Made by a program: the position numbers and the translations under genes. This document shows, in pieces, positions 47,655-53,360 of a stretch of DNA of 54,829 bases. The stretch lies in the NCBI GenBank assembly GCA_902615855.1, contig CACMQN010000008.1, forward strand, positions 1 through 54,829, read 5' to 3'. The notes under the pieces were generated by a model that was not told the DNA's origin, ran no database searches, and saw only the letters and a list, made by a program, of their open reading frames with translations. Source of the DNA: an uncultured Candidatus Actinomarina sp. (GTDB lineage Bacteria > Actinomycetota > Acidimicrobiia > Actinomarinales > Actinomarinaceae). Within the stretch, counting starts at the first letter, position 1, and each line of letters begins with the position of its first letter.

Positions 47655-48459
47655 AAAAATTTTTTACCAGGGATCAAAAGGCTCATACTCTGAATCTATA
47701 TTATTAGAATTATTTCCAGATTACGAATTAGTCTCTTGCAGAACCTTTCAGGAGGTCTCTAAAAATACGACTCAAGAAGGATTTGGGCTTTTGCCAGTTG
47801 AAAATTCTCTTGTTGGAACAGTAATAGAAGCTTATGAAAGTTTAATTGAACACAATTTAGAAATATATTTAGAGATAAAAAAGAAGATAAACCATGCCCT
47901 AATTGGTATTAAAGGAACAAAAAAAGATAATATAAAAAAAGTTATATCTCATCCACAAGCACTCCAACAATGTAGTAAATTTTTAAATGATTTAGATGTT
48001 GAACTACAACCAGTGTTTGATACTGCAGGAAGTGTAATTAGCTTATTAGAGACTAAATCAATTGATATTGGGGCTATAGCAGGTGATCATTTTGCTAATG
48101 ATGAAAGGTTTACAATAATTGAGAAAAATATATCTAATCACGAAGAAAATTACACAAGATTTTTTTTGACAGGAAAAAAATCACTTGAAATTTCTGAAGA
48201 AAAAAATATTCGCTCTGCAATTCTTGTAGCAGCCGATGAGCCTGGTTCCTTACTTAAGGCTTTAACTGTCTTCGATGTCCTAAAATTAAATCTTATAAAA
48301 TTAGAATCAAGACCAATTCTGGGGTCTCCTTGGGAATACAAGTTTTACGTAGATTATCAGAATACTGACAAAAAAATTGACCAACTTTTAATGGATAATC
48401 TTAGCCAAGTAGCCAAAGAATTTAAAATTTTGGGTGAATACGGATCAATTAATCTTTAA
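47644..48459 (+). CDS. pheA: Prephenate dehydratase with ACT domain
   Basis: The product has 271 residues. The catalytic domain has YQGSKGSYSESILLELF, LPVENSLVGTVIEAYESL and the active-site NYTRFFLTG. The C-terminal ACT domain (about 193-270) has EPGSLLKALTVFDVLKLNLIKLESRP with the ESRP motif used for Phe feedback. It makes phenylpyruvate. It is the last gene of the operon. Its 3' end overlaps that of the convergent peptidase gene by 11 nt. Confidence 0.95.
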   Translation: MKNEKIFYQGSKGSYSESILLELFPDYELVSCRTFQEVSKNTTQEGFGLLPVENSLVGTVIEAYESLIEHNLEIYLEIKKKINHALIGIKGTKKDNIKKVISHPQALQQCSKFLNDLDVELQPVFDTAGSVISLLETKSIDIGAIAGDHFANDERFTIIEKNISNHEENYTRFFLTGKKSLEISEEKNIRSAILVAADEPGSLLKALTVFDVLKLNLIKLESRPILGSPWEYKFYVDYQNTDKKIDQLLMDNLSQVAKEFKILGEYGSINL

Positions 48460-49534
48460 ACTTCCAGCTAGAAGAATTCCTATCATCCTCAATTTCTATA
48501 TTTGATTCTGTAAGAAAATCTCTGACGATATCTGATTCTTCATATTTTTGTGATGATCTAAGTTCTATACGGTAAGTTATTAACTTATTGATTAAATTAT
48601 TTATATTTTCTGAATTTTTATTATTCTTTTCAATTTCCATTCTTAATTCAGCTATTTCTTTTCTTAAAACATCTTCAATTTGTTCATCTTGAGAATTTTG
48701 ATCATTGTCAGCACTTTCTTTAATTGATTTTGTTTCAGTATTTTCTAATAACTTTCTGAGATCATCTAAACTATATTTTTCTCCATTCTTAAAGTTTTGA
48801 GTTTCATTTTGATTAATGACAGTGACTTGTCCTAACCCTTCAACTTCAAAAAGGTTTTCTTTTGCATCAATTATTAGAGCTGTATGCTCATCAATACCTA
48901 ATATATTAGTTGGTTGAATCTCTTGTAGAATTTCCATTCTTTTAGCACCAAGATAACTTATGCTTGTGTCATGGTTTCCACCTTCTTTATTATTAAAGTG
49001 TGGAACAACTACACAATCAATATCAAAAACTTCAAGAAGATTTATACCTTTCTCCCAGTAGGGGTCAATCCCAACCTTGTATATTTCATAGACTGGAATT
49101 GTTCTAATACCTAAAGTTGATGCTGCTGCACTGGCAAATATTAAGCTACTTCCAGAGCAAAGTCTCTCCTTAAAAATTTCTGGTACATCTGTATCTATCC
49201 AATTTTTTGTGGCGTAGCTTGGACTACCTGGTCCTGAAAATATAAAATTTGAACTTTGAATTTTTTTTATAAACTCAAAGTATTCAACCGATTTAAAATA
49301 CTTTTTATTTCTAAAACTAGCCAAGTTTATTTCTAAATTTAGACTTACATCATAAAATTCAATCAATTTATCAACTAACTGATCAGCATTTTCTTGAAAT
49401 CCAAAAGGCGTATCTATTAAGGAAGCAATAACTTCACCATCAATTTTATTTATCAAATTTCTATGCACAGAAACTAAATTAGGACTTGTTTCTCCAGAAC
49501 CAAGTATTGCAATTGAACCATTTACTTCTTGCAT
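48449..49534 (-). CDS. S51 (cyanophycinase/dipeptidase E)-like protein fused to a CysRS-type C-terminal tail
   Basis: The product has 361 residues. The N-terminal part (1-240) is a class I glutaminase-like S51 fold, with FSGPGSPSYA at 99-108, a putative nucleophile Ser135 in FASAAAS, VVPHF at 176-180 and LGIDEHTALII at 212-222. The linker at about 255-290 is acidic and low in complexity. Residues about 290-361 form a helical segment ending LRSSQKYEESDIVRDFLTES-NIEIEDDRNSSSWKF, which resembles the C-terminal helix and tail of cysteinyl-tRNA synthetase. The combined function is unknown. The ATG at 49532-49534 is 7 nt from a TATAAT. Confidence 0.8.
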   Translation of the reverse strand: MQEVNGSIAILGSGETSPNLVSVHRNLINKIDGEVIASLIDTPFGFQENADQLVDKLIEFYDVSLNLEINLASFRNKKYFKSVEYFEFIKKIQSSNFIFSGPGSPSYATKNWIDTDVPEIFKERLCSGSSLIFASAAASTLGIRTIPVYEIYKVGIDPYWEKGINLLEVFDIDCVVVPHFNNKEGGNHDTSISYLGAKRMEILQEIQPTNILGIDEHTALIIDAKENLFEVEGLGQVTVINQNETQNFKNGEKYSLDDLRKLLENTETKSIKESADNDQNSQDEQIEDVLRKEIAELRMEIEKNNKNSENINNLINKLITYRIELRSSQKYEESDIVRDFLTESNIEIEDDRNSSSWKFKD

Positions 49535-52111: not shown

Positions 52112-52522
52112 TTATTTACATTTATTACAAACTCCCACATATACGAAATGATTGTCAATTAAATTAAAATTTGATTCTTTTGCAATAATTTTTTCGACAG
52201 AGTTGATGACGTTTTTTGAAATGTCTTTTATCTTTTTACAACTGTTACAAACTATATGAGCAGTTCTTTCTTGGTTTTTAAGATAATAAATTCCTGAGCC
52301 ATGCTGCTGGTGTGAATGCTCTACAAGATCTAATGACTCAAGAATTTCTAGTGTTCTATATACGGTCGCTAAATCAATGTCTTGAACTCTGTTTAAGGCA
52401 AGTTTGTATAATTCATCTGCTGTAAAATGTTCATGACCTGCTTCCTCAAGAATTTTACAAATTGTACTTCTTGACTCGGTAATACGATTACCATTATCTC
52501 TGAGTTTACTAATCAGATCCAT
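52112..52522 (-). CDS. fur: Fur-family metalloregulator
   Basis: The product has 136 residues. The winged-helix domain includes ITESRSTICKILEEAGHEHFTADELYKLA and the recognition helix segment LATVYRTLEILESL. The dimerisation domain has two structural zinc pairs, Cys92/Cys95 (CNSC) and Cys132/Cys135 (CNKC), with sensory-site His around 69-74 and 89. Whether it senses Fe, Zn, Ni or peroxide is undecided. Its placement before cbiQ-cbiO suggests it controls that importer. The ATG is 6 nt from TATACT, so the transcript is predicted to be leaderless. Confidence 0.92.
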   Translation of the reverse strand: MDLISKLRDNGNRITESRSTICKILEEAGHEHFTADELYKLALNRVQDIDLATVYRTLEILESLDLVEHSHQQHGSGIYYLKNQERTAHIVCNSCKKIKDISKNVINSVEKIIAKESNFNLIDNHFVYVGVCNKCK

Positions 52523-52528
52523 AATTAA

Positions 52529-52536
52529 AGTATAAT
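52529..52536. promoter_or_regulatory. Overlapping divergent -10 elements (fur / thioredoxin-like gene)
   Basis: TATACT on the minus strand (52534-52529) sits 6 nt before the fur ATG. TATAAT on the plus strand (52531-52536) lies 21 nt before the ATG of the thioredoxin-like gene at 52558. The two hexamers share four bases, so RNA polymerase cannot use both at once. Confidence 0.55.
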
Positions 52537-52557
52537 TTGTGAAAAGAATGTAAATAT

Positions 52558-53031
52558 ATGAAAAAAATTCTTTTAAAGTTTATCAATAGATACAGTCTAA
52601 TTTATTTACCCTTAGGGTGGATATTTGGTTTAGTAATATTTTTTGTTGCATTTGAGCCATCTTCTGTGCTTTACATTTTAAGTTTTTTTGTAATAGGTTC
52701 TTTTTTTGGATTATATTTGTTTAATTCAAAGCGAGGTTTAGTCGTGGATAATCATAATTTTTCAAACTTTGAATATACAATCATTGAATTTTATTCTGAC
52801 TACTGACTGGGTTGTACTGCTTCAAAATTCATAGTTAATGAATTCAAAAAAAAGCATGAAGATATACCAATTGTGTCAGTAAATGCTTCAAAAAAAGATT
52901 ATCTTGAGACCATTGAAAAATATAATCTCAAATACACACCAACATATGTCCTTGTAGACAAATATGGAGAAAAAATTTATAAAAGAGTTGGTACTTTTAA
53001 TGTTGAAAAGTTTGACTCTATAGTTAGTTAA
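52558..53031 (+). CDS. Membrane-anchored thioredoxin-like protein, probable selenoprotein (in-frame TGA as Sec83, UxxC)
   Basis: The frame from ATG 52558 meets TGA at 52804-52806 and then stays open to TAA at 53029-53031, giving 157 residues if TGA is read. Two hydrophobic segments (about 14-33 and 36-54) precede a thioredoxin domain. The active site reads FYSDY-TGA-LGCTASKF (78-91): TGA takes the place of the first Cys of CxxC, leaving Cys86. After it come the strand IPIVSVNAS, the cis-Pro segment YTPTYVLVD (Pro128) and KRVGTFNVEKF. TGA terminates other genes here, so Trp recoding is unlikely. A pseudogene by point mutation or a sequence error is the alternative. The gene is divergent from fur and its end overlaps csaA by 4 nt. 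Confidence 0.8.
52818..52856 (+). promoter_or_regulatory. Putative bacterial SECIS element
   Basis: AATTCAT (52826-52832) pairs perfectly with ATGAATT (52838-52844) around the 5-nt loop AGTTA. The loop begins 26 nt after the TGA and has G at its second position, matching the published bacterial SECIS pattern (loop roughly 16-37 nt downstream, G among the first two loop bases). A second stem, TGCTT (52818-52822)/AAGCA (52852-52856), closes it across an internal loop. The region is AT-rich, so chance pairing cannot be excluded. Confidence 0.6.
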
Positions 53032-53360
53032 GAAACTTTGTCACCTAAATCTGCTTCTGGACTTGGTTGAAGGAGTAAAACATCCCCATTGTCGTTTGTT
53101 GATCCGAGAATTAAACATTGACTAATTATCGGACCAATTTGTTTTTCACCAAGATTGATTACTCCAATACATCTAATTCCAATCAGTTCATCTAATTCAT
53201 AATTTGTAATTTGAGCACTTGTTTTTTTAATACCTATGTCATTTCCAAAATTAATTTTTAAAATATAGGCTGGTTTTTTTGCCTCCACAAAAACTTCAGC
53301 TGATAAAATTTTACCAACTCTTATGTCTAGGTTTGCAAAATTTTCAACATTACTATCCAT
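53028..53360 (-). CDS. csaA: tRNA-binding domain protein, CsaA-like
   Basis: The product has 110 residues and is a single OB-fold: ANLDIRVGKILSAEVFVEAKKPAYILKINFGNDIG, then KTSAQIT, and GVINLGEKQIGPIISQCLILG. This is the EMAP/Trbp111-type domain in its CsaA form, reported as a dimeric export-related chaperone or tRNA binder. The cellular role here is unknown. The ATG at 53358-53360 lies 6 nt from GATACT (53372-53367), suggesting a leaderless mRNA. Its end overlaps that of the thioredoxin-like gene. Confidence 0.92.
   Translation of the reverse strand: MDSNVENFANLDIRVGKILSAEVFVEAKKPAYILKINFGNDIGIKKTSAQITNYELDELIGIRCIGVINLGEKQIGPIISQCLILGSTNDNGDVLLLQPSPEADLGDKVS

Follow-up and report, generated by a model that had tools for sequence, protein, structure and literature searches.

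Near the end of the window, i.e., the whole stretch of DNA analysed here (54,829 nucleotides on one contig of an uncultured Candidatus Actinomarina sp.), a protein-coding frame of the plus strand is interrupted by a single TGA codon. The frame opens with an ATG at 52558, runs through 82 sense codons to the TGA and through 74 further sense codons to a TAA at 53029-53031, and its end shares 4 nt with the convergent csaA-like gene; both this layout and the overlap had been claimed in a first, sequence-only reading of the DNA, and both agree with the coordinates obtained here. The features considered below are as follows:

52112..52522, minus strand: gene of a Fur-family regulator (PF01475, E 1.7e-28; synteny), divergent, 35 nt from the selenoprotein gene
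52531..52536, plus strand: candidate promoter −10 element TATAAT (putative), within the 35-nt gap (52523-52557) common with the divergent fur
52558..53031, plus strand: proposed selenoprotein gene, 157 residues including Sec83, ending in TAA
52594..52728, plus strand: two-helix membrane hairpin, helices at residues 13-31 and 36-57 (AlphaFold secondary structure; hydropathy peaks 2.39 and 2.19)
52768..53028, plus strand: thioredoxin-fold domain, about residues 71-157, with Thr127-cisPro128 (Pfam PF00085, Foldseek)
52804..52806, plus strand: in-frame TGA, codon 83, proposed selenocysteine 83 of the U-L-G-C motif
52813-52815, plus strand: codon of the resolving Cys86
52826..52844, plus strand: candidate SECIS apical hairpin AATTCAT-AGTTA-ATGAATT, loop G at 52834 (synonymous constraint, pairing)
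53028..53360, minus strand: csaA-like gene with a tRNA-binding domain (PF01588), convergent (synteny), sharing 4 nt with the selenoprotein gene
contig 4 of the source genome (G000), 55632-56555, minus strand: SelD gene (L017), 369.6 bits, with one in-frame TGA

At the base composition of the window, 74 sense codons would follow the TGA by chance with a probability of about 0.004; the real evidence against a chance open frame, however, is the conservation across homologues, not the frame length. The spacing between fur and the selenoprotein gene (35 nt here) is 33-39 nt in the relatives checked. Among 30 upstream regions aligned by eye, the TATAAT-like box is kept as AAAGTATAATTT or AAGTATATTATA in every genome compared, which makes it a candidate promoter common to both genes; as a speculation, the Fur-family neighbour and the kept box may hint at a control linked to metal or redox. 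A read-through scan of the 54.8-kb window returned no other convincing TGA-interrupted gene. Elsewhere in the window, a 361-aa ORF (48449-49534, minus strand) has no match in Pfam at E 0.001.

Translated through the TGA, the product matches PF00085 over residues 72-152 (E 2.7e-6; 27.8 bits vs. a cut-off of 23.5). The AlphaFold model, computed from a 19-row alignment, has a mean pLDDT of 88.6 and shows the domain as strand 73-79, helix 84-99, strand 105-109, helix 116-121, strands 129-134 and 139-144, and helix 149-156, with residue 83 directly preceding the active-site helix (84-99) and Thr127-Pro128 in the cis-Pro position. The best PDB matches retrieved by Foldseek are thioredoxins (E 5e-7), and a profile alignment to PDB thioredoxins sets residue 83 on the first Cys of WCGPC, in the context FYSDY-U-LGC, where the residue before Sec83 is a Tyr instead of the Trp of thioredoxins. 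The claim that the TGA occupies the first Cys of a thioredoxin WCxxC is thereby borne out, as is that of two N-terminal membrane helices, which hydropathy and the AlphaFold model both support. Altogether, the protein combines a thioredoxin fold, a predicted Sec in place of the first catalytic Cys and a Cys three residues on, i.e., the features of a UxxC protein.

The gene is present in 33 of the 42 genomes of the genus Actinomarina, and each of the 33 homologues features exactly one internal TGA, whereas none has a Cys. Codon-level reading, pN/pS and synonymous-constraint counts were based on 30 genus sequences, in all of which the TGA is codon 83. The internal TGA is never replaced by TAA or TAG in the 33 sequences, in contrast to the terminal stops of the family, which differ among TAA, TAG and TGA (one homologue ending in TGA). 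In the 30 sequences, pN/pS amounts to 0.33 before the TGA vs. 0.36 after it, with pN lower than pS in 433-434 of the 435 sequence pairs, so that purifying selection is equal on both sides of the codon; the decay after the TGA for which relatives were to be examined is thus not seen in any of them. The csaA gene adjoins the selenoprotein gene in 30/30 genus loci compared, while the nine genomes without the gene are also without csaA; its absence there consequently looks like assembly gaps, and a loss of the gene in these nine genomes was rejected. Neither the genus nor, above the cut-offs, the sampled 395 genomes of the class and 397 genomes of the phylum yielded a Cys-form homologue, Cys at the Sec83 position occurring only in remote thioredoxins. 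Viral and phage searches for a relative of the selenoprotein gave no match.

Two homologues from another Actinomycetota family (L104 in genome G541 and L103 in genome G665) are 28-29% identical to the Actinomarina protein, have the same two-helix-plus-thioredoxin layout and carry a TGA at the equivalent site (YSDY-U-AAC, hence a UAAC motif). As the two sequences are nearly identical, they count as one evolutionary comparison. The genes flanking L103 and L104 differ from the Actinomarina neighbourhood.

The source genome, a metagenome-assembled genome (MAG) of 1.07 Mb that is 82.8% complete and of which the window is contig 8, encodes a Sec apparatus, which the sequence-only reading had proposed to search for. 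A tRNA-Sec (72.3 bits; reported as SeC with anticodon tca by ARAGORN), SelA (373 bits) and SelD were all found, together with a partial SelB, whose start directly follows selA and whose remainder is lost at the contig end. In relatives, SelB is complete (557 aa, the gene overlapping selA) and bears the SelB-specific winged helix PF09107 (E 8.5e-14). The best SelB score (223 bits) is below the NCBIfam cut-off (242 bits), which we read as sequence divergence, because the gene adjoins selA and its product has the C-terminal winged-helix domain. The TGA of the SelD gene lies at the usual Sec/Cys position and reads HGAG-U-ACKL. Across the genus, tRNA-Sec is found in 40/42 genomes, as is SelD, each time with one TGA. 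An earlier survey recorded “Actinobacterium SCGC AAA015-D07” with an orphan SelD (PMC5029168).

The candidate SECIS hairpin occupies nt 19-37 past the TGA, with its loop at nt 27-31. A bacterial SECIS is expected to lie some 16-37 nt past the TGA and to carry a G at loop position 1 or 2; the hairpin at 52826-52844 has both this distance and this loop G. Across the genus, it reads AAUUCAU-AGUUR-AUGAAUU, with G at loop position 2 in every sequence and 7/7 pairs kept in all of them, and RNAalifold also selects it. Synonymous variation along the gene is lowest at codons 89-95 (observed/expected 0.16 vs. a median of 0.84, in 7-codon windows), codons 91-94 being devoid of any synonymous variant among the 30 sequences. 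In the source genome, this AU-rich hairpin, folded as a single sequence, does not outperform shuffled sequences (z 0.18 and −0.11), and for this reason the case for a SECIS is built on synonymous constraint and on comparison across families. Indeed, when codons are exchanged at random for synonymous ones according to codon usage, the seven pairs all survive in 72% of trials, which makes within-genus pairing alone weak evidence, and within-genus covariation of the pairs is weak as well (2 cells; 26/500 shuffles). The two distant homologues display a 7-bp hairpin in identical register (loop GGUCG, z −2.31); once they are added, three of the seven pairs have changed on both sides with 100% pairing, a covariation score reached by 0/500 shuffles. 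Judged from these alignments, the cross-family comparison is the stronger evidence for a SECIS, outweighing pairing within the genus. Downstream of the TGA of the SelD gene, a short, conserved stem carries a GUU or GUA loop, and both halves of its closing pair have undergone synonymous changes (CAA..TTG vs. CAG..CTG; paired in 24/25). The occurrence of a GU-bearing loop after the TGA in two unrelated genes of one genome would fit recognition by one SelB.

From a computational perspective, the decoding of TGA codon 83 as Sec is near-certain. A lone TGA in one MAG could stem from a sequencing error or reflect a recent nonsense mutation in a pseudogene, but here the codon is identical in 33 separately assembled genomes, which rules out a base error, while pN/pS is equal on either side of it and the SECIS site downstream is constrained; refuted by conservation, this explanation retains a negligible probability. 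A reading of the TGA as some other amino acid, e.g., Trp, through either a reassignment of the code-4 type or near-cognate tRNA suppression, is also very improbable. The frame is open through the TGA, as such a reading would have it, and a Tyr precedes the codon where thioredoxins have Trp. Yet, of the 64 non-overlapping ORFs in the window that reach 100 aa or more, 17 end in TGA (by inspection, several are ribosomal-protein ORFs), which makes a general reassignment very unlikely; one selenoprotein homologue has TGA as its terminal stop, and the internal TGA falls exactly at the catalytic Cys position in the presence of a dedicated Sec system. At many bacterial UGA-Sec sites, a fraction of translation ends at the codon, which makes some truncated product likely. 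A true stop, releasing an 82-residue membrane peptide and leaving the thioredoxin domain to separate synthesis by re-initiation or leaky read-through, would nevertheless deprive that domain of its attacking residue and is at odds with an internal codon invariant in 33 sequences whose terminal stops vary, so that we consider it highly improbable too.

Within a Sec-containing protein, the side of the membrane on which the catalytic domain lies is another matter. Membrane-anchored thioredoxin-like proteins are often extracytoplasmic, and this frequent location would speak for a selenoprotein with its thioredoxin domain outside the membrane, engaged in envelope disulfide exchange (with an electron flow of the CcdA/DsbD kind). 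Against it stand the charges around the helices, with 3-5 K/R in residues 1-12, at most one charged residue in the short turn between the helices and 2-3 K/R after helix 2. By the positive-inside rule, which is a rule of thumb, this pattern favours an N-in/C-in orientation and suggests that both protein ends and the catalytic domain are cytosolic; an extracytoplasmic domain thus appears unlikely, though less so than the explanations dismissing Sec.

Taken jointly, a selenoprotein with SelB-delivered Sec83, a SECIS, a membrane hairpin and a thioredoxin oxidoreductase domain is, in our view, highly probable. The initial proposal of a UxxC selenoprotein with Sec83/Cys86 is supported by the Sec machinery, the TGA of the 33/33 homologues, the equal pN/pS and the constraint on the hairpin. 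In such a selenoprotein, the SelB of the cell would deliver Sec-tRNA-Sec at UGA codon 83, directed by the SECIS mRNA hairpin 19-37 nt past the UGA, and the predicted product of 157 residues would consist of the two-helix membrane hairpin followed by the thioredoxin domain with its active site Sec83-Leu-Gly-Cys86, both ends presumably facing the cytosol. Most likely, Sec83 would supply the attacking selenolate and Cys86 the resolving thiol in a thiol/selenol oxidoreductase, whose most likely role would be to reduce, at the inner membrane face, disulfides or thiols oxidised by peroxide in partners located in or near the membrane. Re-reduction would probably be ensured by the thioredoxin system of the cell; since a thioredoxin reductase TrxB is encoded elsewhere in the source genome (413.7 bits), an NADPH-TrxB route would be possible.

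UxxC thioredoxin-like selenoproteins are already known and have been seen in ocean metagenomes, so that the present one involves no new principle. The closest published description is that of the GOS “Trx-like 3” selenoproteins, a set of 212 mainly marine UxxC sequences distantly related to cd02950/TxlA-like proteins (PMC2398784), which share with the Actinomarina protein the UxxC motif, the thioredoxin-like fold, the in-frame TGA and the mainly marine origin. They differ in being metagenome sequences, presented in the text on this family without an Actinomarina assignment, and the passages on Trx-like 3 with which the protein was compared mention no membrane hairpin (PMC2398784). The Actinomarina gene may be the source of some of these sequences. 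Other UxxC selenoproteins of the thioredoxin family, i.e., Trx (PF00085) and thiol:disulfide interchange proteins (PF13098), are given in Table 1 of PMC13188914; their chemistry is the same, with Sec at the N-terminal active-site position and Cys at the resolving position, but the Actinomarina protein differs by its N-terminal hairpin of two helices and by a spacer, Leu-Gly, that contains no Pro. None of the NCBIfam selenoprotein models reaches its cut-off on the protein, the best being TsoB (13.6 bits vs. 805), and a distant homologue likewise stays below the TsoB cut-off (27.3 bits vs. 805). The TrxA model TIGR01068 scores 28.7 bits, below its cut-off of 96.8. The protein shares with cytosolic TrxA the fold and the active-site position, while being 14-23% identical to it (among the structures listed), membrane-anchored and provided with Sec for Cys, Tyr for the conserved Trp and LG for GP. 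SelD (TIGR00476) resembles it as the second Sec-TGA gene of the same genomes, with a GUU/GUA-loop hairpin downstream, but is a Sec-synthesis enzyme and no thioredoxin.

What appears to be new here is a membrane-hairpin family that is Sec-only wherever sampled, along with the use of Sec in Actinomarina. The main comparative genome paper on Actinomarinales nowhere contains “selen” (PMC7771536), and among open-licence PMC papers none was found that links Actinomarina to selenoproteins or Actinomarinales to selenocysteine. The Actinomarina, which are abundant, uncultured and strongly streamlined, rank among the free-living surface-ocean bacteria with the smallest genomes, and yet they have kept a whole Sec apparatus, for the cost of which a conserved single-copy core selenoprotein offers a reason. 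Tentatively, and with somewhat less than even confidence, we propose that these selenothioredoxins, tethered to the membrane on its cytosolic side, form a Sec-only family not yet described, spread over at least two Actinomycetota lineages without a Cys form in the sampled genomes, which, with SelD, may be among the few clients keeping the full Sec machinery in a streamlined genome of roughly 1.1 Mb and would link a bacterium abundant in the photic zone to the supply of selenium. The selenium dependence predicted here would be of use for cultivation. In annotations, standard gene callers would give an 82-residue membrane peptide instead of the full protein; the complete gene provides a marker by which UxxC reads from marine metagenomes can be assigned to an organism. 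One contig of a MAG filed as Saprospiraceae (JAKVCV010000044.1, L050) encodes a protein 96% identical to the Actinomarina selenoprotein in full synteny, and this filing is probably a binning error.
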